A stretch of 64,000 bases of DNA from Leptospirales bacterium (lineage in GTDB: Bacteria > Spirochaetota > Leptospiria > Leptospirales > Leptonemataceae). Under the pieces are notes generated by a model. The model was not told the DNA's origin. It did not search any database and saw only the letters and a program-made list of their open reading frames with translations. The stretch is from the NCBI GenBank assembly GCA_016788865.1, contig JAEUSB010000003.1, positions 1-64,000 on the forward strand. The letters run 5' to 3'. Position numbers and translations under genes: made by a program. Below, one piece after another: positions 15,904-63,273 of this stretch. Within the stretch, counting starts at the first letter, position 1; every line of letters begins with the position of its first letter.

Positions 15904-15925
15904 AGCCCGCCCCGTGAGGTGGGCT
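15904..15925. terminator. Possible shared terminator hairpin between convergent genes
   Basis: AGCCCGCC (15904-15911) pairs with GGTGGGCT (15918-15925), with one G-T pair and a six-base loop, between two genes that converge here. It lacks a clear T tract on either side, so the call is weak. Confidence 0.35.
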
Positions 15926-15941
15926 ATTGTGCGCTAGACGA

Positions 15942-16304
15942 TTAGAAGATTTTGCTGAAGACCTTGATAATCTGAACGGAGAATGAGTTGGAGGGCGCTG
16001 TTTCCTTGCACTGCTTCTTTTCCCGAACAGTGGCGCCACCTTTCAGGCCTACCATTACTGTGCATTTTCCTCTGGCTCCTGCCGGTTCCTTGACTGTGTT
16101 ATCATTCAGCTGGATTTCTACCTGGACGCTGTGATCAGTACTCCGGTTACTTTTGAGTGTGACATCAAACGTTTTGAAGCCCGGGATTTCATCGGCCAGG
16201 GGGCTTACTGTGACCTCGATTCCATCTTCCGTTGCTCGCTGTGGTTCTGCCCAAACCAGTGCGGGAATTACAAGGGCTAGAAAGGCTATTGTTCTGAGTT
16301 TCAT
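15942..16304 (-). CDS. Small exported protein (120 aa)
   Basis: A strong GGAGGAGA ribosome-binding site sits 4 bases before the ATG. The product begins with a typical Sec signal peptide (MKLR, hydrophobic core, VWA before the likely cleavage), leaving a roughly 100-residue mature periplasmic protein. The mature part is beta-rich with alternating polar and hydrophobic residues and one Cys pair (GKCTV and KQCKE) that could form a disulfide. No lipobox and no recognised family. It is divergent from the propeller protein at 16515, with about 210 bases of shared upstream DNA. Confidence 0.72.
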   Translation of the reverse strand: MKLRTIAFLALVIPALVWAEPQRATEDGIEVTVSPLADEIPGFKTFDVTLKSNRSTDHSVQVEIQLNDNTVKEPAGARGKCTVMVGLKGGATVREKKQCKETAPSNSFSVQIIKVFSKIF

Positions 16305-16514
16305 GAAATCTCCTCCATACTTTTACTATGCCTGTTAGATGCCAGAACAGCAGGGTGTGGCTATCCTTTTTCTACAGACTGAAAGAAAAGGATCATTGTA
16401 GCAATGGGATGACTCCTGTCGAACCGTCCGCCGAGCTTCCCATGGATCCTGAAGCTTGTTTTAGACCTCGGAAAAATAGTTGTGCTCTTTCTTTTGGAAT
16501 GTCTCTAATAGCTC

Positions 16515-36889: not shown

Positions 36890-39232
36890 TTAAAAAGGTT
36901 CCGTGCTCTTGTGCTTGCGTGACAAGAACAGTCCGACCAGGACTGCCAGCCAGGCAAACAAGCTCACCGTGATACAGATTTTTAGAAGCCAGGGATTGAA
37001 AGTAAAGACGACCACGTGTCTTCCTGGTTTTAGCTGAACTCCACGGTAAAGCAAATCCACGGGAAAGATTTCTGTTTCGACGCCATCGACGTGCGCCTTC
37101 CAGCCCGGATAGAATTGGTCTGTCAGGACCATGACCGATTCGCCACGGCTTTCTATCTCCACTTCCACGCGCTCAGAAGAGTAGCTACGAAACGTCCCAG
37201 GTCGCATAACGTCCGAGGGGTCCGTATGCAAGCGGGTGAGTCGCTCGAAAGTCTCGCGCGTTGTCTCAACGATGAGTCTGGCCTGTGGATCGAATTTCGA
37301 GTCCATTAGGGCGGCAGCTGCCACGGGCGATGTTGCATGCAAGAAGGAAGTATGAAGGAATATTCTTGGCAGGGGGTTATCCAGGGCGTACGCGCCGAGA
37401 ATCGCTTTCTCGGCTATCGTCTTGGCCACGTCTTTCTGATTGAGCCAGCCCGGATGTTTGGTAAACAGGAATTTTGCAATGGGATCCTTGATCTCAAATC
37501 CTTCAACTTTGCGAAGAGGAAATGTGCCATGGGTTTTGAGATGTCTTTCCCGAAGTTCTTCAAAATGATCTTTTCTGGAGAGAATGTATCTCACCCCTGC
37601 CAGTCGGTACAGGTTGAAGTTGAGCTCGCGGTCCTTCCCAAGAATGTAGTAATCACCAATCCAGATAAACTGAGGATCTGGTTTGTGATTTATGGAAAGC
37701 TGGTTTTGATAGAGGTAAGATCGGTGAGTCCCCATACGATCGTAGGAGTTGACTTGCGGAATTCTCGCCAGCATACCTGTGTTCTGACAGAAATTCGCTT
37801 CGAAGTTGCAAATGATTTCGAAACGATCCTCCGGTTGCATCTTGAGTTCGTTCAAGAGTTTTGATCTGAACTCATTGACGTACTGCGGCAGCTCGTAAGG
37901 CGGCAAATAGGTGAGCTCAATCGATTTCCGATCGAAAAAAAGAAAGAGAGGTGTTAACAGCAATAACCCCAGCGCCGCCTTGAGATAGAACCCGCGCGGT
38001 CCCTTAGAGACTGACATTAGCTTCCTGACCAAGGATGGTCCGCGTTCAGGCGAATATATCTGTCTCTGGCGCCAGAAAAGAATCAAGGTGTGCAAGCCCA
38101 TTCCCAGAAAGAACGAGCAAGAGAAGATAAAGAGGAAGCCCATTCGTTTGGGCATTCGGAATTGAGAACCAAGGGGATTGAGTTCAAAGTAAAGCTTTGA
38201 GAAAGGCGTTGTCTCCCCGATTGTCGCCAGGTAATAGTAAACAAAACAAAAGGCCATGAAGCCAAACAGGGTTCGGCGTCGTTTCAGTCTGAAGGCCAGC
38301 AGCATGGAAAGCAAAATAGTTCCGAGAGCAATAGATTCAGAAACGGCGGTAGCCCGTGCGTCGTTCGATTTGTCCTCAAACAGCTTTCGCATTTGAAGTA
38401 GTTGAAAGGGTGTCCAGAGATCTGTGTCGGTAGAGCGGAATTGTGTGTAAGTGAGCGACGACTTGGTAAAGGGACCTTCGCGAGCTGCCTCGTAAACGCC
38501 CTGAAGCTGGCCCAGGATCAAGGCCAGAAAAACGATGCCGGCGAGAGTTTCCAGCAAGAACAGGCGAGCAACGGCTCCGTATTCTTTGCGCACAAGTCTT
38601 CGAATCTTCAGCGTGGCCAGTAGCAGAATAAGAAACTCAGTCATATAGTAAAACCACTGAGCTGCGCCGCCGAGAAAGGCCAGGGCAAAGAGCAACGCAA
38701 AGTAGATTGCAGTCCTTATCTGCAAGCGATCAGCCAGGTGAAGAGCGCATAACGTCATCCATGGAAGCCAGCAGAACGTGGACAGGACCGGTGTGTTCCA
38801 ATCAACCCAGCCGATTGCATACAGAAAGAATAGCAATGCGGCCCCTGCCGCCGCGAGCGGCTGCATTCTCAGGTATCGTAGCAGGGCATAAACACCAATC
38901 AGCGCAATATAAAGCGAGACAATCAGTTCTGCAAAGATTCCGCGCTCTGGGCCCAGGAGGAAGTGCAGTATGAGTCTTGGTGGATAGAAGATGCGATGTT
39001 GCCACGAGCCAGTAAAGGCCATACCGCCGGACTGATAGGGGTTCCAGTATGGTATTTCAAGCTGCGAGAATCGAGAATGAATGTAGGCCTGCCAGGGATA
39101 ATCCTGGTGTAGAAAGTCGTTCCACATGAAGTTTGTTCCCGGGTTGACCGCGCCTTTTATTAGAAGGAAGCAAACCGGAAAGAGTGCCAGTAGAATGATT
39201 CCGCTGTGTTTTTTGATGAATCTGCCAGCCAT
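36890..39232 (-). CDS. YfhO-family polytopic membrane protein, copy 1 (780 aa)
   Basis: Some 11-13 hydrophobic segments fill the first 430 residues, after which a soluble, probably extracytoplasmic domain ends in a single membrane span. The early loop has PYWNPYQSGG and the late domain has DQFYPGWKAHVDGVETEIFP, both shared with the four copies downstream and diagnostic of the YfhO family. In Bacillus and Listeria such proteins act with a GT2 enzyme and a GtrA-like flippase to attach sugars to cell-surface polymers, acting outside the membrane. This copy is the most divergent of the five. The acceptor and sugar here are not known. Confidence 0.85.
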   Translation of the reverse strand: MAGRFIKKHSGIILLALFPVCFLLIKGAVNPGTNFMWNDFLHQDYPWQAYIHSRFSQLEIPYWNPYQSGGMAFTGSWQHRIFYPPRLILHFLLGPERGIFAELIVSLYIALIGVYALLRYLRMQPLAAAGAALLFFLYAIGWVDWNTPVLSTFCWLPWMTLCALHLADRLQIRTAIYFALLFALAFLGGAAQWFYYMTEFLILLLATLKIRRLVRKEYGAVARLFLLETLAGIVFLALILGQLQGVYEAAREGPFTKSSLTYTQFRSTDTDLWTPFQLLQMRKLFEDKSNDARATAVSESIALGTILLSMLLAFRLKRRRTLFGFMAFCFVYYYLATIGETTPFSKLYFELNPLGSQFRMPKRMGFLFIFSCSFFLGMGLHTLILFWRQRQIYSPERGPSLVRKLMSVSKGPRGFYLKAALGLLLLTPLFLFFDRKSIELTYLPPYELPQYVNEFRSKLLNELKMQPEDRFEIICNFEANFCQNTGMLARIPQVNSYDRMGTHRSYLYQNQLSINHKPDPQFIWIGDYYILGKDRELNFNLYRLAGVRYILSRKDHFEELRERHLKTHGTFPLRKVEGFEIKDPIAKFLFTKHPGWLNQKDVAKTIAEKAILGAYALDNPLPRIFLHTSFLHATSPVAAAALMDSKFDPQARLIVETTRETFERLTRLHTDPSDVMRPGTFRSYSSERVEVEIESRGESVMVLTDQFYPGWKAHVDGVETEIFPVDLLYRGVQLKPGRHVVVFTFNPWLLKICITVSLFAWLAVLVGLFLSRKHKSTEPF

Positions 39233-41131: not shown

Positions 41132-41572
41132 TTGATCAGGATGCAGCGAAGTGGTTTTGTCGTGCAGAAAGAAAACGATGTGCTCCTATCGAGACCAATG
41201 CGCTGGTATTCGCGCCTTGTAGTTGTCGCTGTTGGTCTCCTGTTCGTATTTGCGGTGGTTCTCGCCCGGAAAGAAAACAGCGCTCGCAAAACAGATCTGC
41301 GCGATTCGCAAAATCTTCACAATGAATTGAGCAAGCTTAAACCATCCATCGCGCAGCAAGAGCGCCTGTCGGTCTTTACCGGTCCAGGATTCTTCACGGT
41401 TGAATCTGCCCGATTCATTGAATATGAGCTCCATCCAATCCAGGTCGAATGGGTGGCAACGCCGCTGGTTCCACAAAAACAAAACGTCCTCGTGCATTCA
41501 TCCCATCCGGATTTTGCTAACGCCGGAGGTCAGAGAACACAGAACTTCGCCCTCGTGGAGCCACGTCGTTGA
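41132..41572 (+). CDS. Small single-span membrane protein (146 aa)
   Basis: One hydrophobic segment (about residues 28-46, LVVVAVGLLFVFAVVLA), then a charged helix (ARKTDLRDSQNLHNELSKLK) and a beta-rich periplasmic domain ending LVEPRR. The start could be this TTG or the in-frame ATG at 41141; neither has a strong site. The stop overlaps the TTG start of the next gene (TTGA), so it opens the long polysaccharide operon or its first half. Function unknown; position suggests an accessory subunit of the next membrane protein. Confidence 0.62.
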   Translation: MIRMQRSGFVVQKENDVLLSRPMRWYSRLVVVAVGLLFVFAVVLARKENSARKTDLRDSQNLHNELSKLKPSIAQQERLSVFTGPGFFTVESARFIEYELHPIQVEWVATPLVPQKQNVLVHSSHPDFANAGGQRTQNFALVEPRR

Positions 41573-42840
41573 TTTCGCGGATTCTGCACATAGCGTTCTA
41601 TTATCTGAGCGTGATGCCCCTTGTGGCCTTCTTGCTTTTTAAGTTCCTCCCTGCTGGAGAGCTGAATAAGGCAAGGCTTGCGATGGTTGGGATTCTGATT
41701 ATGCTTGCCCTGCCACTGAGATTGATTCTGAAAACGATTCCTACGCAGCCCATTAAGCTGAACAGGAACCATGCATGGTTTGCTGTTGTCCTGACTTTCG
41801 GATCAGCGTTCCTCCTCTGGCGCATTTCTCAACACACACAGGGCATGACAGACGCCTGGCAGATGTGGAATATGAAGGGGAAATTCTATTTCCTTTCATT
41901 TGTGAACGGAGTGGAGTTCCGGCTTGTCCTACCAGAATGGTTTCATCCTGGATATCCGGCTTTCTTTCCGTTCCAGTTGGCCGGGATCGCTCTGCTGCTT
42001 GGGACCTGGGTTTCAGAAGTTGCAATTTTCGTTGCGCTGCTTTATTACGCTCTAATCGCTCTGATGTTTTTCGATCTAGCCGGGCGTATTCAAGGCGCCA
42101 GACCTTTTTGGCCCACTACGTTAGGCGATATTTCTCTGCTCCTCGCAATTCTTCTACCGGTCTTGCCGGGGATTATTATGGCCACGGCCGAGCAGTGTGC
42201 TGATATACCGCTCGGCGTGTTTCTATTGTATGCGTATTATTTGACTCGTGAACTCACTGGCTCGGGGAAAGGCAGCGTGGGACTGTTTGCCTTGCTGGGG
42301 CTATCGTTCGCTGTGATGCTTCATGTCAAAAACGAAGGCGTGCTCCTGGTACTCATGGTCTTTCCTGCATTTCTCTGGCTTTTTCGTTCCAGCCTGAAAT
42401 CACTGAAGCATACCGCCATGCTCCTCGGTAGCTTTGGGCTCTCTTTCGTGTTGCTGGTTTTGTTCAAGGTCCATGCTCCTGAGCTGCAGCCTTACAAATT
42501 CCAGTTGAGCCGCGTAGTTCAGGACCTGGTGGATCTCTCCCGTTACGCATTCATTCTCAAGGGCTTCCTGGCTTTCCAGATACTGACGGCCTTCTTTGCA
42601 CCCATTGCAGCTGCAATCCTGGTCTTCCAATTTCGTAAGAAGGACCTCTTTCTGTTGGTTCCTCTGTTGCTGAATTTCGCGTTCTATCACGCCTTCTTCC
42701 TGATCACGCCTGAGGATCTGCCATGGCACTGGATCAGCGCCTACCATCGCATTAATATTCAAGTCATGCCTGCCTGGTTCTTTGTTTCGGCTGCTTCTCT
42801 CGGCGGGCTCCTCCTCCACAAGGAGTCGGGGAATCCATGA
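41569..42840 (+). CDS. Polytopic membrane protein, GT-C-like (423 aa)
   Basis: Ten or so transmembrane segments with short loops; the first periplasmic loop has GMTDAWQMWNMKGKFYFLS, with Asp in the position of a GT-C catalytic acid, and a mid-chain HVKNEG segment. The chain lacks a large soluble C-terminal domain. It resembles a membrane glycosyltransferase of the oligosaccharyl or PMT-like superfamily in plan only. Start TTG overlaps the previous stop. The next gene, rfbF, follows after 66 bases, so the sugar-nucleotide genes may be read from the same transcript. Confidence 0.72.
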   Translation: MISRILHIAFYYLSVMPLVAFLLFKFLPAGELNKARLAMVGILIMLALPLRLILKTIPTQPIKLNRNHAWFAVVLTFGSAFLLWRISQHTQGMTDAWQMWNMKGKFYFLSFVNGVEFRLVLPEWFHPGYPAFFPFQLAGIALLLGTWVSEVAIFVALLYYALIALMFFDLAGRIQGARPFWPTTLGDISLLLAILLPVLPGIIMATAEQCADIPLGVFLLYAYYLTRELTGSGKGSVGLFALLGLSFAVMLHVKNEGVLLVLMVFPAFLWLFRSSLKSLKHTAMLLGSFGLSFVLLVLFKVHAPELQPYKFQLSRVVQDLVDLSRYAFILKGFLAFQILTAFFAPIAAAILVFQFRKKDLFLLVPLLLNFAFYHAFFLITPEDLPWHWISAYHRINIQVMPAWFFVSAASLGGLLLHKESGNP

Positions 42841-42906: not shown

Positions 42907-43671
42907 ATGAAAGCAGTAATCCTGGCAGGTGGCCTGGGATCCAGGATCAGCGAAGAGAGCTCTGTTAGACCCAAGCCACTGATTGAAGTGGGCGGAAAAC
43001 CCGTGCTCTGGCATATCATGAAGATATATTCCCACTATGGTGTGAATGATTTCATTATTTGTCTGGGTTACAAAGGGTACATGATTAAAGAGTACTTTGC
43101 CAATTACTTCCTGCATATGTCGGATGTAACCATTGAACTCGCAAACAACAAGATGAGCGTTCACCAGCAGTACGCAGAGCCATGGCGCATAACGCTGATT
43201 GATACGGGTGAAAAGACAATGACGGGTGGCCGGTTGAAGCGAGTTCGCGACCACGTTTCCGGAGAGGATTTTTGTCTCACGTACGGTGATGGCGTTGCGG
43301 ACATCAACATTGAACAATTGGTCAAGTTTCACAAGAGTCACGGCAAAGCAGCAACGTTAACGGCTGTTCAGCCTCCCGGTAGATTTGGCGTATTGCGCTT
43401 GCAGAATGATTCGATTACAGCATTCGAAGAGAAGCCAAGCGAAGGCGGGTGGATCAATGGGGGATTCTTTGTCCTTTCCCCGTCGGTGATTGATCTAATC
43501 CAGGACGATGAGACAGTTTGGGAGCGCGAACCAATGGTGAAGCTCGCAGCAGACGGTAATCTGAAGGCATATTTTCACGATGGGTTCTGGCAGCCCATGG
43601 ATACGTTACGCGACAAGCAGCAGTTGGAAGGACTCTGGGAAAGTCGGAAGGCTCCCTGGAGAGTCTGGTGA
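42907..43671 (+). CDS. rfbF: Glucose-1-phosphate cytidylyltransferase
   Basis: Makes CDP-glucose from CTP and glucose 1-phosphate, the first step towards CDP-3,6-dideoxyhexoses. The 254-residue protein opens with the nucleotidyltransferase signature KAVILAGGLGSRISEES and has the PKPLIEVGGKPVLWHIM substrate block, FCLTYGDGVADINI (metal-binding Asp) and FEEKPSEGGWINGGFFVLS. Length and motifs match RfbF throughout. It overlaps the next gene (GTGA), the expected pathway partner, showing translational coupling. Confidence 0.96.
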   Translation: MKAVILAGGLGSRISEESSVRPKPLIEVGGKPVLWHIMKIYSHYGVNDFIICLGYKGYMIKEYFANYFLHMSDVTIELANNKMSVHQQYAEPWRITLIDTGEKTMTGGRLKRVRDHVSGEDFCLTYGDGVADINIEQLVKFHKSHGKAATLTAVQPPGRFGVLRLQNDSITAFEEKPSEGGWINGGFFVLSPSVIDLIQDDETVWEREPMVKLAADGNLKAYFHDGFWQPMDTLRDKQQLEGLWESRKAPWRVW

Positions 43672-44759
43672 ACCATGCGGTCTGGTCTGGGCGCCGGGTC
43701 TTTTTGACCGGTCATACAGGCTTCAAGGGTTCCTGGATGGTGGCCTACCTGAAGCGCCTTGGCGCGGAAGTTACCGGGTACAGCCTGGCGCCCCTGACGG
43801 ACCCGTCCCTCTTTATCGAAGCAAACATCCAACCATTGCTCGCAAATCATCACCTCGCGGACGTAGAAGACCTGGCAACGCTCAAGAAGGCCATGCAGGA
43901 ATCTCGCCCGGAAATTGTGTTTCATATGGCTGCGCAACCCCTGGTTCGTGAGTCATACGTGAAGCCAATTGAGACCTTTCGGACAAACGTGTTGGGAACC
44001 GCCAATGTGCTCGAATCTGTCCGGGCAGTTGATACGGTGCGAGCCGTAGTAAATGTTACAACAGACAAAGTCTACGAAAACCCGGAACATGCCAAACCAT
44101 TCCTCGAAGATGAAAAGCTCGGCGGCTATGATCCGTACTCTGCAAGCAAGGCTTGTTCGGAAATTGTCACTGCCGCCTATCGTCAGTCCTTCTTCAATGC
44201 AGCCAGTTATCGAGAACACAAAGTGGCGGTGGCAAGTGCCCGCGCGGGAAATGTCATTGGTGGTGGTGATTGGTCGCCGGATCGGTTGGTCCCGGATTTG
44301 CTTAAGGCGCTACTCAAAGACGAAAAACCGCTGATTAGAAATCCCGTGGCAGTGCGACCCTGGCAGCATGTGCTCGAACCAATCTCGGGCTACTTGAACC
44401 TGGCTGAGAAGCTTTTTCAAGAGGGGCCTGCCTTTGCGGAACCATTTAACTTTGGCCCCGATGCGAGCGACATGCAACCAGTCCTCAAAGTTGCAGAATT
44501 GATCCTGGAAGTATGGGGCAAAGGCGAGCTCAATGTTCAAAAGTCGCCTAACGGACCTCATGAGGCTGGCGCTTTGCTTTTGGACAATACCAAAGCAAAG
44601 AAACGGCTGCACTGGCATCCAGTCTGGAATCTCAAGACTGCTCTAGCGCGAACCGTAGAGTGGACGCAGCACTGGCATCAGGCAAAAGGTAATTTGATGG
44701 ATCTGATGTCGCATCAGATCGCTCAGTACGAAAAAGACGCAAGCAATGGAAGAGGCTAG
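43668..44759 (+). CDS. rfbG: CDP-glucose 4,6-dehydratase
   Basis: Converts CDP-glucose to CDP-4-keto-6-deoxyglucose. An extended SDR with the NAD-binding TGHTGFKGSWM motif near residues 15-25, the catalytic NVTTDKVYEN stretch, and the YDPYSASKACSE motif with the YxxxK Tyr and Lys. The SARAGNVIGGGDWSPDRL block and the RPWQHVLEP segment are typical of RfbG. Start is a GTG overlapping the rfbF stop. About 57 bases separate it from rfbH, with an unusual in-frame extension of rfbH directly downstream. Confidence 0.96.
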   Translation: MNHAVWSGRRVFLTGHTGFKGSWMVAYLKRLGAEVTGYSLAPLTDPSLFIEANIQPLLANHHLADVEDLATLKKAMQESRPEIVFHMAAQPLVRESYVKPIETFRTNVLGTANVLESVRAVDTVRAVVNVTTDKVYENPEHAKPFLEDEKLGGYDPYSASKACSEIVTAAYRQSFFNAASYREHKVAVASARAGNVIGGGDWSPDRLVPDLLKALLKDEKPLIRNPVAVRPWQHVLEPISGYLNLAEKLFQEGPAFAEPFNFGPDASDMQPVLKVAELILEVWGKGELNVQKSPNGPHEAGALLLDNTKAKKRLHWHPVWNLKTALARTVEWTQHWHQAKGNLMDLMSHQIAQYEKDASNGRG

Positions 44760-44816
44760 AACCTGGAAACAAATCTGACACCCCTCACAGCCGGCGATAT
44801 TTGCAAGTTACAATGG

Positions 44817-46358
44817 ATGAGCCAGGAGCGCATGGCGCTGGTAGTTTCCATCGAACAGGATGAAGCGCAAATCGTGTTCGCTTGCGATCCGGCGCAATCG
44901 CTATTCAATCTGAATTCCGAGGAGTTCGAAGGTCCATTTGAAAGTCTGGCTTTCCCCGTTAAGATATCCGCTTCTGTGCCCGTTGCGACAACTACGCGTG
45001 TGGGCCGCCTGAAGAGGACGGCGCTTGAACGCTTTCTAAGAAAGTTCATGGAGAGTCAGACCCGCAACTATTACCAGGCAATCCACAAACCCGCGCAGGA
45101 CTCGCCTTTTGAGCCTGGTAAGACTCGAGTGACGTACGCGGGACGTGTTTTTGATGCAGGCGAGATGGTGAACCTGACCAATTCCGCGCTGGATTTCTGG
45201 CTGACAAGCGGTCCTTTCTCGGCTGAGTTTGAGAAGCGATTTGCAAAGCTCCTTGGTGTCAGGAAATCCCTCCTGGTAAACTCTGGCTCCTCGGCTAATT
45301 TGCTCGCGTTTTTTACTCTGACGTCTCCAAAGCTCGAGGAACGGGCCATAGAAAGAGGCGATGAGATCATCACTGTAGCCGCTGGTTTTCCAACCACAGT
45401 TGCACCAATGCTGCAGTACGGTGCTAAGCCGGTCTTCATCGATGTGAGCGTAGACGATGGAAACTACAATGCGGATGTATCCTTGCTTGAGGCGGCGCGT
45501 TCTGAGCGCACCAAGGGTGTGATGATGGCGCATACACTCGGGAATCCATTTGATCTGAATACGGTACGCGAATTTTGCAAGAAGTACAATCTCTGGTTAG
45601 TGGAAGATAACTGTGACGCATTGGGCACTCGTTATGAAGGGCAACTAACGGGCAGCATTGGCGATCTGGCAACATCGAGTTTTTATCCGCCACACCATCT
45701 TACAATGGGTGAGGGCGGCGCTGTGTACACCGGGAACTTGAAGCTCGCAAGCATTGCGGAATCCATGCGCGATTGGGGTCGCGATTGCTGGTGTGCATCC
45801 GGTAAGGACAATACGTGCGGCAAGCGCTTTGAATGGGAACTGGGTGAATTGCCCGCAGGATACGATCACAAGTACATTTACAGCCACCTGGGCTTCAATC
45901 TCAAGGTCACTGATATGCAGGCGGCCATTGGCCTTGCGCAACTGGACAAACTGGATGAGTTCGTCACGTTGCGACGGAAGAACTGGCAGACCCTGCGCGA
46001 TGGCCTTGCGGACTTGCAGGATGTCTTCATATTACCAACTCCAACAAAGGGATCTGAACCGAGTTGGTTTGGTTTTGCACTGACAATTCGTGAAAACTCC
46101 GGAGTAAAACGTCGTGAGCTGATTGATTATCTGGAAGCCGAGAGCATCCAGACCAGGCTGGTATTTGCAGGAAACCTGCTGCGCCACCCGGCCTTTGACA
46201 AAATGAGAAAAACCGGCACCGACTACCGGGTAGTTGGGGACTTGAAGAACACGGATCGCGTGATGAACCAGACCTTCTGGCTTGGCGTTTATCCAGGAAT
46301 GAAGACCGGTATGATTGAATACATGATCGAGAAGATTCGCAAGTTTGTGAGACGTTAG
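44817..46358 (+). CDS. rfbH: CDP-4-keto-6-deoxyglucose 3-dehydrase (E1), with N-terminal extension
   Basis: Removes the C3 hydroxyl to give CDP-3,6-dideoxy-4-keto-hexose using pyridoxamine phosphate and a 2Fe-2S centre. The aminotransferase fold has its usual Schiff-base Lys replaced by His (PPHHLTMGEGG, His294), and the cluster ligands Cys266, Cys324, Cys326 and Cys334 reproduce the C-X57-C-X-C-X7-C spacing known for this enzyme. The usual protein is about 437 residues; this one has about 76 extra N-terminal residues of beta-rich character before the MESQTRNYYQAIHK start-like segment. The frame is open back to the rfbG stop, so the true start may lie even further upstream at a non-ATG codon. 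The E3 reductase partner is not in the window. Confidence 0.95.
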   Translation: MSQERMALVVSIEQDEAQIVFACDPAQSLFNLNSEEFEGPFESLAFPVKISASVPVATTTRVGRLKRTALERFLRKFMESQTRNYYQAIHKPAQDSPFEPGKTRVTYAGRVFDAGEMVNLTNSALDFWLTSGPFSAEFEKRFAKLLGVRKSLLVNSGSSANLLAFFTLTSPKLEERAIERGDEIITVAAGFPTTVAPMLQYGAKPVFIDVSVDDGNYNADVSLLEAARSERTKGVMMAHTLGNPFDLNTVREFCKKYNLWLVEDNCDALGTRYEGQLTGSIGDLATSSFYPPHHLTMGEGGAVYTGNLKLASIAESMRDWGRDCWCASGKDNTCGKRFEWELGELPAGYDHKYIYSHLGFNLKVTDMQAAIGLAQLDKLDEFVTLRRKNWQTLRDGLADLQDVFILPTPTKGSEPSWFGFALTIRENSGVKRRELIDYLEAESIQTRLVFAGNLLRHPAFDKMRKTGTDYRVVGDLKNTDRVMNQTFWLGVYPGMKTGMIEYMIEKIRKFVRR

Positions 46359-46369
46359 TCGCACATAAA

Positions 46370-46759
46370 ATGGAATTGTTTCAGAAAAGATCTTTTGGAT
46401 TATTCCTGATCGTCGGTGGAATAAACACCGTATTTGGCTATCTCGTCTTTGCTCTGCTAACTCTAACCGGGCTTCACTATTCACTTGCTGCTTTTTTGGC
46501 CACGGTCATTGGTGTGATCTTTAATTTTTTTACAACGGGAAGAATCGTATTTGAGAACCGTTCTCCAGCGCTCATCTTCCGTTTCTTCCTGGGATATGGC
46601 GTGTACTATGTCCTGTACGTAATTTCGATCGGCCTGCTAAAGCATTTTGGTCTCGACTCGTTGGTTGCGGCAGCAATTGCGCTTCCCCCGCTTTCAGTAG
46701 TATCCTATCTATTGAATAAGTACTTCGTTTTCCCGCAGGCCAACGGAAACCCGGGATGA
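46370..46759 (+). CDS. GtrA-family membrane protein (129 aa)
   Basis: Four transmembrane helices cover most of the chain, with the GtrA signature FLIVGGINTVFGYLVFALL in helix 1 and SYLLNKYFVFP at the end. GtrA-like proteins are thought to move undecaprenyl-phosphate-linked sugars across the inner membrane for O-antigen or teichoic-acid modification. Together with the GT2 enzyme at 49562 and the YfhO proteins, this fits a three-component glycosylation system. The stop overlaps the next start (ATGA). Confidence 0.92.
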   Translation: MELFQKRSFGLFLIVGGINTVFGYLVFALLTLTGLHYSLAAFLATVIGVIFNFFTTGRIVFENRSPALIFRFFLGYGVYYVLYVISIGLLKHFGLDSLVAAAIALPPLSVVSYLLNKYFVFPQANGNPG

Positions 46760-47802
46760 AGCCAATCGATTCTCGGGACCTTGGGCATTTCCTGGAAAAA
46801 ACAAGGAGTTGCTGGGAAACGTTAGGCGGTAAACGAGTTTTCATTACGGGAGGGAGTGGCTTTGTAGGTCGGTGGTTGCTCGAAACGATTCTCTACGCCA
46901 ATGCTCGCCTGGGCCTTTCACTTTCAGTGGGAACAATGACGCGGGATGCGAAGACTCTTAGAGCATCCCTGCCGCACCTGGTGAATGATTCCGCGCTGAC
47001 CATATACCAGGGTGGATTTGCTTTTTTAAAGGGTCTAAACGGTGAGTTCGATTTCGTAGTCCACGCAGCGGCCGATACTCGTGTTGCCCCTGAACGCGCC
47101 GATGAAATCCTCGCAAGCATGCTCGATGGAACGCGAATCGCTCTCGATTTTACTGAACGTGTTGGTGCGAGGGACTTCCTTTTAACCAGTTCTGGAGCCG
47201 CATACGGCCGGCAACCTCCCGATATCACCCATTTGTCGGAGGAATACCCGGGCAAGCCCGACGCCAACGATCCATCATCTGCATATGGCGAGGGGAAACG
47301 CCTGGCGGAATTGATGTGTGCCCGGAGCTCGGAGCAAACCGGAATTCGGACGAAGATCGCGCGACTGTTTGCCTTTGTTGGTCCGCATCTGGCGTTGGAC
47401 CGGCAGTATGCTGCTGGAAACTTTATTCGAGACGCCCTTCGCGGAGAAACCATTCGGATTGCTGGAGATGGGACCGATCTCCGGTCGTATCTTTACGCGG
47501 CTGATATGGCCATCTGGCTCTGGACAATTCTCTTTCGCGGCGAGCCGGGGAGAATCTACAATGTGGGTTCTGATCAAGAGATAAGCATAGAGGAGCTTGC
47601 AAAGCTCGTCGCGCAGGCCGCCGGCTCACGGGCTCCAATTTCAATCGCAAAAACCCCGGTACCGGGTAAATTACCGGCCCGGTATATTCCGAGCACGGCG
47701 CGGGCGCGTACGGAATTGCACTTGCAGGAATGGGTGCCGACTGCGGAATCTATCAAGCGTACCGTCGAATGGTTTCGGGACCAGACCCACGGTATTGTTT
47801 GA
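46756..47802 (+). CDS. NAD-dependent epimerase/dehydratase-family SDR (348 aa)
   Basis: An extended SDR with the Rossmann motif FITGGSGFVGRWLL near residues 28-42, HAAADTRV, the SSGAAYG block and the active-site YGEGK (YxxxK). NVGSDQEISIEELA is the C-terminal substrate-domain motif. Similar enzymes (abequose or paratose synthases, or the YerF-type reductase) reduce the 4-keto group of CDP-3,6-dideoxy-hexoses, and the neighbouring genes make that kind of substrate. Which sugar is made is not shown by sequence. It overlaps the gtrA-like stop and is followed closely by the transketolase pair. Confidence 0.88.
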   Translation: MKPIDSRDLGHFLEKTRSCWETLGGKRVFITGGSGFVGRWLLETILYANARLGLSLSVGTMTRDAKTLRASLPHLVNDSALTIYQGGFAFLKGLNGEFDFVVHAAADTRVAPERADEILASMLDGTRIALDFTERVGARDFLLTSSGAAYGRQPPDITHLSEEYPGKPDANDPSSAYGEGKRLAELMCARSSEQTGIRTKIARLFAFVGPHLALDRQYAAGNFIRDALRGETIRIAGDGTDLRSYLYAADMAIWLWTILFRGEPGRIYNVGSDQEISIEELAKLVAQAAGSRAPISIAKTPVPGKLPARYIPSTARARTELHLQEWVPTAESIKRTVEWFRDQTHGIV

Positions 47803-47808
47803 TTGTTT

Positions 47809-48618
47809 ATGTCTAACTTTGATCCGCGAAAGCTCAGAAAGACTGTCCTTGAAATGGCATACGCCGGGTCAACGGTGCATATCGCATGTGCCTTTTCCAT
47901 AATAGAAATACTCGCCGTTCTGTATCGTTCGCATCTGAATCTTGGCGACCGCACAGTCGACGCGCAAGATCGCGACTTCCTCGTCTTGAGTAAAGGCCAT
48001 GGTGTTATGGCGCAGTATGCTTGCATGCGCGAACTCGGCTGGCTCAAGGACAAAGATATTTCGAATTATTTTGGTGATGGCACCCTTCTCAAAGGGCTAT
48101 CAGACGGTCACGTACCGGGCCTTGAGGTAACGTCTGGATCGCTCGGGCACGGTCTATCAGTTGGCGTTGGGTTAGCACTGGCTGCGAAACGGAAAGGCAC
48201 AGGTCAGCGTTGTTTTGCGATCGTGGGAGACGGGGAACTGAACGAAGGTGCTATCTGGGAAGCAATGCTTTTTGCAGCGCAGGTCGAACTGAGCAATTTG
48301 CTAATCATTGTAGATGCCAATGGATTTCAGGCTATGGGGCGTATTGACGAAATCATCCGTCTCGAGAGCATTGCGGACAAATTCAAATCGTTTGGATTTG
48401 AGACGCGCGATATTGATGGTCACGATCAGGATCTGCTGACTAGGACCATCGATGAGTTGATGCGGTTGAACTCGCCAGCCCCGCGTGCTCTTGTTGCGCG
48501 GACCATCAAGGGTCAGGGAATTTCCTTCATGGCCAATGACAACCGCTGGCACTACACCAGGTTGAGTCCTGAAAGCTATGCAAAGGCTCTGGCAGAGCTG
48601 GAAGAGCAGGGCAAATGA
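47809..48618 (+). CDS. Transketolase-like N-terminal subunit (269 aa)
   Basis: A ThDP-binding half-transketolase. SKGHGVMAQYACM and GSLGHGLSVGVGLALAAK match the transketolase N-terminal domain, and VGDGELNEGAIWEAML followed by DANG forms the ThDP/Mg motif (GDGE...N). The length is typical of the split form, in which the pyrimidine-binding domain is encoded by the next gene. The ATG is preferred over the TTG two codons earlier. ATGA overlap with the C-terminal subunit. In this setting a two-carbon (ketol or acyl) transfer to a keto sugar is a reasonable inference; a housekeeping role in pentose metabolism is less likely because of the surrounding sugar genes. Confidence 0.92.
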   Translation: MSNFDPRKLRKTVLEMAYAGSTVHIACAFSIIEILAVLYRSHLNLGDRTVDAQDRDFLVLSKGHGVMAQYACMRELGWLKDKDISNYFGDGTLLKGLSDGHVPGLEVTSGSLGHGLSVGVGLALAAKRKGTGQRCFAIVGDGELNEGAIWEAMLFAAQVELSNLLIIVDANGFQAMGRIDEIIRLESIADKFKSFGFETRDIDGHDQDLLTRTIDELMRLNSPAPRALVARTIKGQGISFMANDNRWHYTRLSPESYAKALAELEEQGK

Positions 48619-49565
48619 GAAACGCGTTTTCAGATGCACTCGTTTCGGCTGCAAGAAAAGATTCCCGGGTGCTCCTGTTGACAGGGGACCATGGGTACGC
48701 GCTGTTCGATCCGTTCCGCGCCGCGTGTCCGGATCAGTACATCAACGCTGGAGTGGCAGAGCAAAACATGGTTGGCGTAGCTGCCGGTCTTGCCAAGGGA
48801 GGGTTCCGGCCGTTTGTCTATGGCTTGAGCGCCTTTGTGCCCATTCGTGTACTCGAACAAATCAAAATGGATGTTTGTTATCACGAACTGCCCGTCATAT
48901 TTATTGGTGATGGGGCCGGGGTGGTTTATAGCTCGCTTGGATCAAGCCATCAAAGCACGGAGGATATTGCCGCGCTCCGTTCCTTGCCCTCGATTTCCAT
49001 TTTTTCGCCGGCGGACGCAGCGGAGATGACCGCTTGCATGGAAGCAGCGCTGGCCAGCACAGGCCCCGTGTATCTGCGCATGGGCAAGGCAGATCTTGGA
49101 AAGATTCACGATTCGCCACCGGTTGTGAAGAGCGGAGGGCTAATCAATGTTCAACAAGGTCGCTCTAAAATGGCCTTCATTGCGACGGGTTCCATGGTAT
49201 TCGCTGCGCGCGCAGCTTCGCAGGAATGGTCGGATGTGGCTGTATGGAGCGCGCCTTCATTGAAACCCATCAGTTCTGAATCCATTGAACAAATCGCAAA
49301 ACAGCATGAGATTATCGTTACATTTGAAGAGCATTCAGTTTCCGGCGGACTTGGCTCAATCGTCACGGAAGTATGCTCAGAGCGATTTCCACGCCACGTG
49401 CTGCGAATAGGCATCCAGGATCGGTTTTCTCAGTTTTGCGGATCATACGAGTATCTAATGCGCGAACATAAGTTGGATCTGGAATCCGTTGTTGAGAAGA
49501 TTCGCAACTACCTGGTGCAGTTGGGAATGGAAGAGACGCATGGGCTGAAGAATAGGGCAAAATGA
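48615..49565 (+). CDS. Transketolase-like C-terminal subunit (316 aa)
   Basis: Contains the pyrimidine-binding domain with the catalytic Glu in INAGVAEQNMVGVAAGLA, then the FIGDGAGVVYSSLGSSHQS segment, the SPADAAEM and YLRMGKAD blocks and a transketolase C-terminal domain (about residues 190-310). The two subunits together make one ThDP active site. ATGA overlaps with both neighbours, including the GT2 gene, show that this set is translated as one unit. Confidence 0.92.
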   Translation: MRNAFSDALVSAARKDSRVLLLTGDHGYALFDPFRAACPDQYINAGVAEQNMVGVAAGLAKGGFRPFVYGLSAFVPIRVLEQIKMDVCYHELPVIFIGDGAGVVYSSLGSSHQSTEDIAALRSLPSISIFSPADAAEMTACMEAALASTGPVYLRMGKADLGKIHDSPPVVKSGGLINVQQGRSKMAFIATGSMVFAARAASQEWSDVAVWSAPSLKPISSESIEQIAKQHEIIVTFEEHSVSGGLGSIVTEVCSERFPRHVLRIGIQDRFSQFCGSYEYLMREHKLDLESVVEKIRNYLVQLGMEETHGLKNRAK

Positions 49566-50506
49566 AAAAGAAGCGAATTTCGATAGTCACTCCCTGTTAC
49601 AACGAAGAAGCGAATGTGCAGGAAGTCTACCGCCAGGTGAAGGAGCAGTTTAAGAAGCTTCCCGCTTACACGTATCATCACATCTTCATAGATAACGCGT
49701 CAAAAGACGGTACGGTCAGCATTCTGAAGGATCTTGCAAAGAAAGATAAGAACGTTCGCATCATAGTCAATTCGAGAAACTTTGGTCCGCTTCGATCTCC
49801 CTACCATGGACTGCTTGAGGCAGACGGTGATGCGGTAATCCTCCTGGTCGCCGACCTGCAGGATCCGCCGGAGATGATTGGAAAGTTCATAGAACAATGG
49901 GAAGCCGGGTTTAAGGTTGTGCTTGGGATCAAGACGTCAAGCGCCGAGTCATGGTTGATGTTCCTCGTGCGGAAGCTATTCTATTATCTGATTGGCGTTC
50001 TCTCTGACACGACGGTTCAACTTACCAAGAACAACACGGGATTTGGCCTTTATGACAGACAGATTATCCAGATCCTGCGCGGACTGGAGGATGCAAATCC
50101 ATATCTGCGTGGCATGATTTCAGAATTGGGCTTTCCCAGCGCAAAAATTCCTTACAAGCAGCCTGCGCGCGCTGGCGGCAAAAGCAGTCATAATTTCTAC
50201 GTAAATTATGACTTTGCAATGCAGGGAATCGTAAACCATTCCAAACTCCCTCTGAGAATGGCGACTTTTTCCGGATTCATCCTTTCTGGACTTTGTGCTC
50301 TGGTTGCTCTTGGATACCTTATAGCCAAGCTTCTCTTCTGGACGGAGTTTCAGTTAGGTATTGCGCCCCTTGTTGTTGGTGTATTTCTATTTGCGTCCGT
50401 TCAATTGTTCTTCATTGGAATCCTGGGTGAATACATTGGTGCGATTCACACACAGGTATTGAAAAGACCTCTAGTGATAGAGAAAGAACGCGTGAACTTC
50501 GACTGA
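49562..50506 (+). CDS. GT2 polyprenyl-phosphate glycosyltransferase with two C-terminal TM helices (314 aa)
   Basis: The N-terminal GT-A domain has ISIVTPCYNEEANVQEVYRQ, the IDNASKDGT loop, and LVADLQDPPEM with the catalytic DxQD-like motif. Two membrane helices (about residues 228-255 and 263-290) anchor it. This plan is that of DPM1/GtrB/CsbB-type enzymes, which make undecaprenyl-phosphate-linked single sugars on the cytoplasmic face. A GtrA-like partner lies in the same operon and YfhO proteins follow on the opposite strand, so the complete loading, flipping and transfer set is present. It is the last gene of the operon. Confidence 0.93.
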   Translation: MKKKRISIVTPCYNEEANVQEVYRQVKEQFKKLPAYTYHHIFIDNASKDGTVSILKDLAKKDKNVRIIVNSRNFGPLRSPYHGLLEADGDAVILLVADLQDPPEMIGKFIEQWEAGFKVVLGIKTSSAESWLMFLVRKLFYYLIGVLSDTTVQLTKNNTGFGLYDRQIIQILRGLEDANPYLRGMISELGFPSAKIPYKQPARAGGKSSHNFYVNYDFAMQGIVNHSKLPLRMATFSGFILSGLCALVALGYLIAKLLFWTEFQLGIAPLVVGVFLFASVQLFFIGILGEYIGAIHTQVLKRPLVIEKERVNFD

Positions 50507-50600: not shown

Positions 50601-52818
50601 TCAGACCTTTGCCCATCTGCTTCGACAGTGGCAGACAATGAGGAAAAGCATTATGGCCAAAAGGCCGAATCCGGAGAACGCTAGCAGCACAACCAATAAC
50701 GTGGGTTTGTATTCAAATTCAACACGGTGTGTTCCCGGAGGAAGTTTGATCGTGCGAAAGATCAGGTTTGCAGCATAAACCTCAACCTGAACTCCATCAA
50801 TTCTTGCGATCCATCCGGGAAAGAACTTGTCACCAAGGACCAGGAAGGTGTCGCCCGCCGCATTTGTTTCAAGCACTACCCGTTCCGGCTCATCTACAAG
50901 AAATTTGGCCGGTGCCAGGTGATCACCGGGGGAGGTTCTGGTAAGTAGCCCTTCCTGGGCTGGAATTTCGACTGCGGTTTGCAGGAGAGGGTTCAGAGAT
51001 TTCGACATGAGGATTGCGCTTTCGCGGGGTCCTGAAACGGGGACAATTCTATTGGTCAGGTAGGCTCTTGGTAGTACGGGCCCGCGCATTTGGAATAGCA
51101 AGTACTGATCAAGATGGTCACCCATGGCCAATAAGGTCGTTGATCCCAGGGTCTTGCTTACAAACTCAAGCATCTCTGGAGTCGCAACGGCATCATTGAT
51201 CACAATGAAACTCTGCAACACTTTCGCTTTCGTCTCTGGGTCTGCTCTCAGCCAGAGGCCGCGATTCCCGAGTATCCATTTGACCGATCCGGCGCCTAAT
51301 AGTTGTAAGGTGGTGTTCTTGGCCAATGCTTTGTAATCCAGATGGGTTTCTCCAAGCCAGATGCTGTCCTTGTTCTGGTTTCGCAGGTCTTCAGCAAGCA
51401 AGGACGAGAATAAGAAAGAGCGGTAGGTGTTGGAAGGTTCGTAGTCCGAGAGGTTCCGCCTGGAAGCCAGCATGCCAACTTTCTCGCAAGGTGCGAAGAA
51501 TGAATTGCAGACGGAATCAAAACGATATGCCTTTTGATCCGGCAGGACACTTTGTGCGGTGCGCGCGTAGCCATCAATGTACCGGGCCACATGGATAAAT
51601 GCAACAGCTGGGAGATGTTTTTGCGGCACTACGACAGCCAGAACAAGCAAGGCCAGTAGCAAATTTCGGTGGGCCAATTTGATTGAAGAAAATTTGCGCA
51701 AGAGGCGGTTGGCGTTTTGAATGAAGAAGGCCATACCTACAGATGCGGGAATAAGTAAAATATGGTTCGCGCGCTCAGGGATCCTGAACGCGGATCCCAG
51801 TGGGTAGTGATTGAAGTACCATTCAGCTATGGGACCCTGACGGCCCATCGAAAGCAGAGCAATAGGAATGGCCAGACAGATCATGGCAACTACCAGTGGA
51901 CGGTTTCGTGGAGATAAGAGCGCGCTTACTAGTCCGGCAGCGATTAACAATGGCAAGACGATTTTGGTGATCGTGTTGCCTCCCAGGAGATCGGGCAGGA
52001 TGCTTCCTGCGGGTCGTCCGCCTAATCGATTGAACTGATGGATGGTCACTCCGATTTCTCCCCGGATTCCCAGCGCAAAGAACTCTCCGGCGGAGACCAT
52101 CTGCGGGGCGGTGAGGATTGCGAAGAACACGATCGCCATTCCCAACAAGAGGGCGGTTCGTAATTTCTGCGTTTTCAATACGCGAGCGTTTTCAACGAGT
52201 GAGAAAATAAACACAAGTGCGCAGGCATGCAAAGCAAAGAACGCGTACTGTGGATACCCAGCGTACAGGAGCATGCTAAAGGCAAGGCATATCCCAAGTG
52301 CGCTTCTGACGCGCGGGCGGAAAGCAAACTTGCGAATTGCTAAGATGCATATCGGCAACCAGGTCACGCACGCCAGGAGATTTAATAGTTTGAAAGTATT
52401 TAGAAACTCTGCGGACAGTACAAACACCAGCGCCCCACTGAGAGATGGGACTTCCGAACCGAAAAGAACGCAGCATGGCATAGGATCCGATCATCCCAAG
52501 GAAGAAATGAAACAGGATCTCGATGAATTGTCCCACCTCAAGACCCAAGAGAATTGTCAAAAGCAGATGTGGGGGGTATAGCAAGCGCGCTTGCAGTGTG
52601 CCAATTACGGGATTGCCCGATGAAATATACGGATTCCACAGAGGCAGCTCGCCATTCATGACACGATTGTGAAAATACTTCTGCATGGGATATTCGTAAG
52701 TGACAATGTCGGAGAAGATATACGTGCGGTCTATTCCGCCCAGGTTACTACGGGCCAATAGGAACAGTACGCCGAGGAGAATTAGAACAAGCGGCGTAAG
52801 GCGGCCAACCGATATCAA
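50601..52818 (-). pseudogene. YfhO-family membrane protein, copy 2, frameshifted
   Basis: Two reading frames together cover a full YfhO-type protein: an N-terminal part from the TTG at 52818 (GGAGGAG upstream; a GTG at 52833 is also open) and a C-terminal part with the DKFFPGWIARIDGVQVE motif down to 50601. They join around 52430-52440: the first frame aligns with the paralogues up to SFRFGSPISQWGA and the second continues with LVFVLSAEFLNTF. Loss of two bases in a GCGC stretch would explain the break. All other parts match copies 3 to 5. It may be a recent inactivation, a phase-variation-like slip, or a sequencing error. Confidence 0.8.
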
Positions 52819-52973
52819 GAGTTCTCCTCCCACACATCATTTCTGCGCGAAGGCATGCAGGGGGAAACTCTGTTTTTGCTCAGTTTTGTGCGCGGTGGTG
52901 GAAGTACCAGGTTCCTTGAAGATTATCCAACTCGCCTCCGCAGTCCAATCCATTGGACAGGTGCGGAGGGTAT

Positions 52974-55268
52974 TTATTGCTCTTTTTTCAGCCGTTTCCG
53001 GCCCACCACAAGAAATGCAATTAGAATCGCGTACCCGACCAGCGATACTATGAATGAAACATAGAAATTCCACGGTTTGTAAACGAACTCTACTTCATGT
53101 TTCCCGGGTGATAACCGAATTGCTCGAAACATAATGTTAGCCGGATAGATCGTTGTGAGTTGACCATCGACTCTGCACTCCCAGCCGGGAAAATACTTAT
53201 CGTTCAGGACCAGGAATGCCTCACCCGCTGCGTCCGTCCGGATTACGATATGTTCGGGTTTATCGACAATAAAGTCCGCACGTTTCATATGATCGGCCGG
53301 GACGGTCTTCCCAGCCGTTAGTCGTAAATGCTCGGGTATTTCTAATACCGTTTGTTTCATGGGGTCAAACGGTGGTTCGAGGATTCGAGCGCTGTCTTTC
53401 GCACTTGCACTGGTTTCGATCCGATTGGTCAGATAGGCTCGGGATACTGTGCCTTCCAGCTTGAAGATAGTATACAGCGACGTATCTTTCGGTAAAAGCT
53501 CCAGAAGTATCTTCAGTTTCTCTTCGCCGACCTTCTCAAGAAGGCGAGCTCGCGCCGTATCATCCGGCACAATATCCACCGGGGTGACAAGACCTACCCC
53601 TTTGATTCTAGTCCGGTGTTCTGGAGTTGTTTTGCGCCAGAGCTCAGAGCTTGCCATAACCCACTTCACTGAGGCGGCTTGCAGTAGCTTCAGGGCGGCC
53701 GGATCCGTGAATGTATCAATATTGATATTTGTTTCCCCTAACCACAAATAGCCCTCAGGCAAGTTGCGCAGCTCGCTGGAAACCAGACGTGAAAACAAAT
53801 AGGAGCGATACGTGTTTGCAGGTTCGTAGTCTGTGAGGCTGCGCCGTCTGGCTATCATTCCTGCCTTCTGGCAGGGCTCCAGTCCAAAATAGCATATTGT
53901 GTCGTACCGATCGTAGCTGCTTTCCGGAATAACCTTCCTCAGATTTTCCGCGTAATGATCAATGTGTTTTGAGATATGCATGAAAGCCTGTGTTTTCAGT
54001 GCCTTTCCGGGCACCAGCAGCAGGGCCAGGGCAAACAAGAGCGCAACTGTCCCTGCCAATCGCAAACTTGTTTTCCTGATCTTCCGATCAACGATTACGA
54101 ATGCCAGTCCAAGAAAGAAGGCTGAAGGGAACAATAGCAGGAATAGTAAGCGCTGGGGAACACGAAAGGCAGAGCCCAGTGGATAGTTGTTGAATATCCA
54201 GTTTGCGAACTCGCCGCCTGAAGCAAGCAAGGCGAATGGAATCACAATAGCAACCATTGTCAAGATGCGTAATCGATATTCCCGCAACATTGCGTATCCC
54301 AGGATCGCACTGAGGGCTACCATCAGGGGCAGGGCGTACAAATGTGGGGGATATTGAATAGTTGGGGCTTGACCGGGTTGCGGCGGCACCATTTGAGCCC
54401 CTCCGTAGAGGTGCGGGAGCAATACAAGAATTGAACGACTGCCGAAGGGGTTGAACTGCTGCAAGGTTACACCGACTTCACTGCGAAGACCTCTTGAGAA
54501 TAGCTCGGCTGATGTGATAATTTGGGCACCGGAAACCAGGGCGAATAACGTTAAGGCGGTGCTGATCAACAGCAGGAAACGAACAGGGTGCCTCATAAGA
54601 CGCCGCCGCAGATGGAACGCTCCAAACAGAAAAACGATTACGCAAACGTGTGCCGCGTAGTACGCGTATTGAGGGTAGCCGGCGTAAATCAGCATCGAGA
54701 AGCTGAATGCCAGGATGGCTGAAGTCGTAAGGTCTGGCCGATAAAGAAATTTCCGTATGGACCAGATGCAAACGGGCACCCAGGCCACTGTAGCAATGAC
54801 ATTGAAAGCGGCAAAGGCGTTCAGAAACTCGACTGAAAGCATGACGCTCAGGGCGCCAACCATGCTGGCCATGCGCTTCAACCGAAACGATCTCAACATT
54901 GCGTAAGATCCAATTACAGTTAGGCAGAAGTGGAAAATAACCTCGAGCAATTGGCCCACATTCAGTCCAAAGACCAGAGTCAAGATGAGCCGCGGTGGAT
55001 AGATCAGGCGCGCCTCAAGCGTACCGATCATTGGATTACCCCCGGATTGGTACGCGTTCCAGAGCGGTAGTTCTCCATTCAGCAAGCGTTCGTTGAAATA
55101 CTGCTGCATTGGCAGATCGTAGCTGAGGTTATCAGCGAAGTTATAGGCTTCATCCAGCCGGTCGAGGTTGGATCTTCCGAGCAAAAACAGGAAGATCAAT
55201 AGAATTAAGGCGAATAGCGGTGTTCGCCTGGAACGTCCCATGCTGCGAACCAGTTCAAGCATTCCCAA
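52974..55268 (-). CDS. YfhO-family polytopic membrane protein, copy 3 (764 aa)
   Basis: Same plan as the other copies: about 11 transmembrane helices, opening loop GELPLWNAYQSGGNP, IYAGYPQYAYYAAHVC in the mid-region, then a soluble extracytoplasmic domain with DYEPANTYRSYLFSRL and DKYFPGWECRVDGQLTTIYP, and a final membrane span (WNFYVSFIVSLVGYAILIAF). The start is shown at the TTG; in-frame ATGs follow at 55262 and at codon 10, and no site has a strong ribosome-binding sequence. It most resembles copies 2 and 4. By family the protein would transfer a lipid-linked sugar to a surface polymer outside the inner membrane. Confidence 0.88.
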   Translation of the reverse strand: MGMLELVRSMGRSRRTPLFALILLIFLFLLGRSNLDRLDEAYNFADNLSYDLPMQQYFNERLLNGELPLWNAYQSGGNPMIGTLEARLIYPPRLILTLVFGLNVGQLLEVIFHFCLTVIGSYAMLRSFRLKRMASMVGALSVMLSVEFLNAFAAFNVIATVAWVPVCIWSIRKFLYRPDLTTSAILAFSFSMLIYAGYPQYAYYAAHVCVIVFLFGAFHLRRRLMRHPVRFLLLISTALTLFALVSGAQIITSAELFSRGLRSEVGVTLQQFNPFGSRSILVLLPHLYGGAQMVPPQPGQAPTIQYPPHLYALPLMVALSAILGYAMLREYRLRILTMVAIVIPFALLASGGEFANWIFNNYPLGSAFRVPQRLLFLLLFPSAFFLGLAFVIVDRKIRKTSLRLAGTVALLFALALLLVPGKALKTQAFMHISKHIDHYAENLRKVIPESSYDRYDTICYFGLEPCQKAGMIARRRSLTDYEPANTYRSYLFSRLVSSELRNLPEGYLWLGETNINIDTFTDPAALKLLQAASVKWVMASSELWRKTTPEHRTRIKGVGLVTPVDIVPDDTARARLLEKVGEEKLKILLELLPKDTSLYTIFKLEGTVSRAYLTNRIETSASAKDSARILEPPFDPMKQTVLEIPEHLRLTAGKTVPADHMKRADFIVDKPEHIVIRTDAAGEAFLVLNDKYFPGWECRVDGQLTTIYPANIMFRAIRLSPGKHEVEFVYKPWNFYVSFIVSLVGYAILIAFLVVGRKRLKKEQ

Positions 55269-59240: not shown

Positions 59241-59242
59241 TC

Positions 59243-63113: not shown

Positions 63114-63273
63114 AGACGATTGCTCTCCAGGATCATAGCATGACAACTGTTTTTGGCATACTCAAGGAAGGGATGGCGTGCCCTTGCGGGAGGCGGTCGA
63201 TTTTATTTCCTCAAATCTCCGAGAATGCTAGTATGTATCACGCATCCGGTGGATTGTGACTGCGGTTTAAACG

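Follow-up and report, generated by a model that had tools for sequence, protein, structure and literature searches.

To our knowledge, the C4-branched 3,6-dideoxy sugars of Gram-negative bacteria have so far been ascribed to YerE-like enzymes. In the yersiniose route of Yersinia pseudotuberculosis O:6, the product of RfbF, RfbG and RfbH serves as the acceptor, YerE uses thiamine diphosphate (ThDP) to place a two-carbon branch on C4, and a ketoreduction completes the sugar. ErwE, from the erwiniose pathway, is YerE-like and branches the same CDP-4-keto-3,6-dideoxyglucose, but takes longer hydroxy 2-oxo acid donors. Here we describe a locus from a Leptospirales bacterium, contained in a window of 64,000 nucleotides at the start of contig JAEUSB010000003.1 (C49 of genome G000, a 4.88-Mb draft that is 94% complete), in which rfbF, rfbG and rfbH share an operon with a short-chain dehydrogenase/reductase (SDR) and with both halves, TktN and TktC, of a split transketolase. 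YerE is a single-chain decarboxylase (a flavoprotein) of the acetohydroxyacid synthase (AHAS) type, whereas the window enzyme is a two-subunit transketolase. On the basis of the sequence comparisons below, we propose that the latter functions like YerE without being a member of the YerE family.

Two-protein branching systems have been proposed elsewhere. AviB1/AviB2 of avilamycin and Pau11/Pau12 of paulomycin are each thought to install a C4 acetyl branch, which for AviB1/AviB2, a putative protein complex, is proposed to come from pyruvate (PMC4753412). These pairs come from antibiotic clusters of Gram-positive bacteria, and the window enzyme resembles AviB1/AviB2 in being built from two subunits. 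A 2025 review (PMC12247030) raises the possibility that split transketolases branch keto sugars, but for Streptomyces only, and states that none has been characterized in vitro. For the split transketolases of miharamycin and amipurimycin and 13 others from Streptomyces (the review cites Krug et al. 2024), the proposal is a hydroxyacetyl transfer that would place a two-carbon unit on a keto sugar, and the review mentions no rfbH context. No paper connecting rfbH operons to a transketolase was found in the open-licence literature.

As an earlier note on this DNA had held, the first three enzymes are RfbF, RfbG and RfbH. All three score above curated equivalog cut-offs, and RfbH keeps the HHxTMGEGGAV and DCWCxxGKDNTC motifs (Fe-S/PLP). 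The note's placement of a two-subunit transketolase and an SDR in the same overlapping operon was likewise borne out, both by Pfam matches and by 4-bp overlaps at four gene pairs from rfbF on (RfbF/RfbG, GtrA/SDR, TktN/TktC and TktC/GT2). With Transketolase_N on one chain and Transket_pyr and Transketolase_C on the other, the pair belongs to the split transketolase family, and the best NCBIfam score of TktN is to transketolase (212 bits, vs. 47 bits for pyruvate dehydrogenase E1 alpha). YerE-like proteins, by contrast, match acetolactate synthase models. Among solved structures, the TktC profile scores highest (364 bits) against the split transketolase of Carboxydothermus hydrogenoformans (PDB 6YAJ/6YAK), which differs in keeping His100 and in not accepting pyruvate. 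Numbered by Escherichia coli TktA, from its actual sequence, the ThDP/Mg residues are kept in the window pair (the GDG...N motif and the equivalents of Glu411, His26, His66 and His473). His100, His461 and Asp469 are Leu, Gly and Leu, respectively, and the pair thus departs from canonical transketolase (EC 2.2.1.1).

The genome encodes a second split transketolase, with its TktN half at C106:18528-19328 and its TktC half at C5:231753-232244. Because this C5/C106 pair keeps the classical residues, including intact Asp469/His461 motifs in the C5 TktC, the window pair would not be needed for the pentose phosphate pathway. We therefore rejected the window transketolase as the housekeeping enzyme; the data support a dedicated extra copy. 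The housekeeping halves are unlinked, and the C half lies beside an apparent S-adenosylmethionine synthetase gene. Nor is the window enzyme a 1-deoxy-D-xylulose-5-phosphate synthase (DXS, also DXPS), as it is split and has Leu at His100, and the DXS of this genome is encoded separately on C103.

The association of this transketolase with rfbFGH recurs widely. The complete cassette recurs in G152, a genome of the same genus (79% identity for TktC, 84% for TktN and 68% for the SDR), and G208, also of the genus, has RfbFGH with a different SDR and without this transketolase. In a global scan of 84,980 genomes, made with an alignment of TktC sequences, relatives with 44-65% identity were found in rfbFGH operons of Pseudomonadota, Cyanobacteriota and Planctomycetota. 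Their hosts include Variovorax, Cupriavidus, Achromobacter, Trinickia, Burkholderia, Herbaspirillum, Ramlibacter, a member of the Rhodobacterales, Solimonas, Pseudanabaena and Planctomycetes, and the usual order is rfbF-rfbG-rfbH-[SDR]-tktN-tktC-[gtrA-GT2]. An Epimerase-family SDR lies directly 5' of tktN or 3' of tktC in most complete loci. A Methylovirgula plasmid carries rfbF-rfbG-SDR-rfbH-tktN-tktC plus GT2/GtrA, and in Microcystis RfbH is on a separate contig, close to a contig end. In a Rhodoferax metagenome-assembled genome (MAG; L130, 2860-6701), rfbH and tktN are separated by two Schlafen/AlbA-type genes and one DUF1016 gene, an apparent insertion.

We also chose 96 RfbH neighborhoods regardless of transketolase content: 40 from the window's phylum, 39 from the Polaromonas (Comamonadaceae-type) family and 17 from the genus to which Burkholderia sp. 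OK233 belongs. A split transketolase was the only ThDP enzyme in 25 and a YerE-like enzyme in 34, with neither in 36 and both in one (Fisher one-sided p=1.6e-5; this and the p-values below are optimistic because related genomes were counted as independent, and some loci are truncated by contig ends). Together, this survey, of the kind that the earlier note had called for, and the global scan place rfbFGH-transketolase operons in several phyla. Within the Comamonadaceae-type family, the transketolase occurred in 15 loci, a YerE-like enzyme in 14, neither in 10 and both in none (p=1.3e-4), and the window-type SDR was present in 21 of the 29 loci with a ThDP enzyme vs. none of the 10 without (p=6.9e-5). 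The SDR family therefore tracks the branching enzyme, as expected of a branch ketoreductase, which supports the note's suggestion that the SDR could be the reducing partner. All 17 loci from the OK233 genus have the SDR, eight have the transketolase, and AHAS-like matches are strong in three and weaker in four. To us, these patterns suggest a single place for a ThDP-dependent branching enzyme that one or the other family can occupy, the ketoreductase being common to both. Because transketolase and YerE-like enzymes are nearly exclusive, and because the SDR in the Comamonadaceae-type family occurs only alongside a ThDP enzyme, a branching role for the split transketolase is well supported, and we hold it to be highly probable. 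Chance adjacency of the transketolase and rfbFGH was rejected on the recurrence across loci and on these surveys. Three loci (L098, 6180-8000; L103, 5615-9009; L106, 10426-12300) combine RfbFGH, an AHAS-like enzyme, a 4-hydroxy-2-oxovalerate aldolase-like gene and an SDR, a set consistent with a pathway like that of ErwE, in which a 4-hydroxy-2-oxo acid would supply a longer branch.

A tree of 91 split transketolases places the window enzyme in a clade, which we call class I, that is monophyletic (28/28, bootstrap 99) on a long stem of 0.70. The RfbFG-linked enzymes outside it, class II, form several lineages, in Bacteroidota, Bdellovibrionota, Bacillota, Acidobacteriota, Elusimicrobiota and others. 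RfbFG linkage requires eight changes on the tree by Fitch count vs. about 30 with shuffled labels, and it arose repeatedly. On a Paenibacillus plasmid (L071, 10097-12001), TktN forms a single protein of 635 amino acids with an SDR from a second family. The TktN frames of L179 and L193 are also long, and an SDR of the L071 family lies just upstream of them in frame order. The L071 fusion lies in an rfbFG operon with methyltransferases and without rfbH. A Klebsiella plasmid (L073, 6763-11593) encodes a split transketolase lacking Asp469 together with an FGGY kinase and a sugar ABC transporter, and the locus probably serves sugar catabolism. The identity of this enzyme as an apulose transketolase was not established, the isomerase encoded there weakly matching sulfoquinovose isomerase.

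The choice of donor turns on His100. We took this site in distant sequences from a multiple alignment because the pairwise tblastn readout was unreliable there by one residue. Class I TktN proteins have Leu at His100 throughout (Leu99 in the window TktN, which aligns gap-free on both sides of the site with sequences such as L013), as do all 43 class I loci, some of which were fetched twice. Elsewhere in the alignment, split transketolases carry His except for two with Gln, all of class II having His, and the DXS of the window's genome has Phe. In DXPS this position is consistently Phe, the H100L change in a Geobacillus transketolase (GsTK) gives pyruvate activity about one third that of DXPS, and a native split transketolase keeping His100 does not accept pyruvate (PMC7661550). 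An E. coli transketolase with H100L, D469T and four stabilizing changes uses pyruvate, whereas the wild type does not (PMC10787763), and TKgst H102L/H474S uses pyruvate as well (PMC7696235). The engineered enzymes (E. coli 6M, in which Asp469 is also replaced, and GsTK H102L) share Leu at the donor site with the window enzyme, but they are laboratory mutants acting on aldehydes, and the window enzyme is natural, split and encoded in a sugar operon. Because Leu replaces the donor-binding His100, the change that gives pyruvate use in engineered transketolases, an acetyl branch appears more likely. Since class II keeps His in the same kind of operon, a CDP-ketose as acceptor does not by itself demand the change, which is more likely donor- than acceptor-related. 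Given a branching role, these residues and the published mutants make acetyl moderately likely as the transferred unit.

The earlier note had instead suggested hydroxyacetyl (ketol) transfer and a different side chain. Hydroxyacetyl from a ketose phosphate or hydroxypyruvate would give a 4-C-glycolyl sugar, reduced to 4-C-(1,2-dihydroxyethyl). This is ordinary transketolase chemistry, it has been proposed, but not shown, for the split transketolases of miharamycin and amipurimycin (PMC12247030), and it suits the class II enzymes, which retain His100, better. The loss of His100 in every class I enzyme, at a position that is Phe in DXS and Leu in pyruvate-accepting mutants, and that of the phosphate ligand His461, however, make it unlikely for the window enzyme. 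What finds support in the note's proposal is ThDP branching by a dedicated transketolase that replaces YerE in rfbFGH operons; ketol transfer by the window's clade does not. The His100 loss speaks only against a donor with a C1 hydroxyl, and 2-oxobutyrate or a longer 2-oxo acid would give a different alkyl branch. TKgst H102L/H474S accepts 2-oxobutyrate (PMC7696235) and ErwE shows that longer donors occur in this type of pathway (PMC12247030), but no donor-making enzyme was recognized in class I operons, whereas several YerEb loci have a 4-hydroxy-2-oxovalerate aldolase-like gene. We consider such a donor improbable. A proposed parallel between a Ser385-to-Tyr change and the engineered variants was dropped, the alignment being ambiguous (Tyr in one, Ala in the other).

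Several observations weigh against acetyl branching by the transketolase. Leu at His100 could suit a donor other than pyruvate. Asp469, which is Leu108 in the window TktC, is lost in nearly all split transketolases of the larger family, including those unlinked to RfbH; its loss is thus not specific to ketone acceptors, and we dropped it as a mark of them. Losses of Asp469 and His461 are both common in the wider split family. A Verrucomicrobiota MAG (L118) has a class I transketolase, with RfbH not found. No RfbI-type reductase was found in the window, as the earlier note had remarked, and a Fer2-FAD-NAD protein of this type was not found in the 94%-complete genome, which yielded one 248-residue FAD_binding_6 protein and otherwise weak partial matches. 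RfbH must therefore use another electron donor, whereas 23 other fetched loci have an RfbI-like gene and the class I loci L123, L137, L221 and L233 do carry RfbI. One locus, L090, has both ThDP enzyme types; there (11201-16718), the YerE-like match is in two pieces beside a class II transketolase and the SDR is in two open reading frames (ORFs), so that these genes may be decaying. Finally, L079 and the Paraburkholderia-type loci L254 and L260 have the SDR with no ThDP enzyme detected in the stretch read.

The L079 locus, where RfbFGH stands with a 45%-identical SDR, bears on a further alternative, in which direct reduction of the C4 ketone by the SDR gives an ordinary 3,6-dideoxyhexose, while the transketolase supplies another precursor without acting on the CDP sugar. 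Abequose and paratose are both products of 4-ketoreductases from this broad SDR superfamily. Set against this are the mutual exclusion of transketolase and YerE in RfbH loci, an SDR family that follows the ThDP enzyme, the repeated RfbFG linkage on the transketolase tree and the existence of an SDR-TktN fusion, and we judge direct reduction very unlikely.

For acetyl branching we envisage the following pathway. RfbF, RfbG and RfbH would make CDP-3,6-dideoxy-4-ketohexose. TktN and TktC would bind ThDP and activate a donor that lacks a C1 hydroxyl; the simplest candidate is pyruvate, which would lose CO2. Addition of the acetyl unit would turn the C4 ketone into a tertiary alcohol. The adjoining SDR would reduce the acetyl group to yield a CDP-yersiniose-type sugar, 3,6-dideoxy-4-C-(1-hydroxyethyl)hexose, and GT2 and GtrA probably carry the sugar to a polyprenyl carrier and over the membrane, where it would be joined to a surface glycan. 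We infer the substrates, the acetyl unit, the product, its stereochemistry and its export from the comparisons above. As a whole, this acetyl-transfer route to a yersiniose-type sugar appears somewhat more probable than not, an estimate rounded because a related donor could also yield a yersiniose-like outcome. For the wider family, the odds seem about even that a widespread natural split-transketolase clade became an independent, pyruvate-using and ketone-accepting counterpart of YerE through the His-to-Leu change also chosen in engineering, with class II lineages making a second, as yet undescribed set of hydroxyacetyl-branched sugars.

The plus-strand operon is compact and longer than the interval spanned by rfbF to tktC (42907-49565), with gtrA inside it, GT2 beyond it and two genes preceding rfbF (Table 1). 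The same-genus locus L074 has a 139-residue ORF in the position of the first of these and a 427-residue ORF immediately 5' of rfbF, in the counterpart position of the membrane protein, which its hydrophobic sequence and the GtrA/GT2 context alone make a candidate GT-C type glycosyltransferase. The RfbH open frame reaches 5' to about 44763; the extra stretch (44763-45047) is an N-terminal addition of ~95 residues in this genus, seen in G152, weaker in G208 and absent from typical RfbH. The SDR belongs to the Epimerase family, with TGGSGFVG and YxxxK motifs intact, and TktN has an alternative ATG start at 47809. GT2 scores 205 bits against the PgfS model, under the equivalog cut-off of 500, and a GtrA-GT2 pair lies 3' of the transketolase in many class I loci too.

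Table 1. Genes of the branched-sugar operon in the window
Feature	Coordinates	Strand	Match or remark
Small protein, 146 amino acids, first gene of the unit in this genus	41132..41572	+	No family match
Multi-pass membrane protein, 423 amino acids, candidate GT-C type glycosyltransferase	41569..42840	+	No Pfam match
RfbF, glucose-1-phosphate cytidylyltransferase	42907..43671	+	TIGR02623, 463 bits (cut-off 300)
RfbG, CDP-glucose 4,6-dehydratase	43668..44759	+	TIGR02622, 467 bits (cut-off 278)
RfbH, CDP-6-deoxy-L-threo-D-glycero-4-hexulose 3-dehydrase (E1)	about 45048..46358	+	PRK15407, 705 bits (cut-off 423)
GtrA-type small membrane protein, candidate lipid-linked sugar flippase	46370..46759	+	PF04138, 65 bits
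Extended SDR, proposed C4 acyl branch ketoreductase	46756..47802	+	PF01370, 109 bits
TktN, ThDP-diphosphate-binding half of split transketolase, class I	47803..48618	+	PF00456 (Transketolase_N), 97 bits
TktC, pyrimidine-binding and C-terminal half	48615..49565	+	PF02779 (Transket_pyr), 107 bits; PF02780 (Transketolase_C), 58 bits
GT2, PgfS/ArnC/GtrB type, proposed sugar transfer to polyprenyl phosphate	49562..50506	+	PF00535

Similar large YfhO-like membrane proteins are encoded in a row around the operon, at 36890-39232, 50601-52833, 52974-55268, 55473-57740 and 60855-63146 (minus strand), that at 50601-52833 appearing broken into two frames. An MBOAT O-acyltransferase followed by a 539-residue protein (57840-60862) is a possible glycan O-acylation pair.

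If the proposed pathway is correct, the transketolase route would mean that an unusual way of forming a C-C bond evolved convergently, and class I would comprise natural enzymes coupling pyruvate to ketones, akin to the goals of mutagenesis in biocatalysis. Leu or His at a single position would then be a sequence rule predicting the surface sugars of many environmental bacteria.

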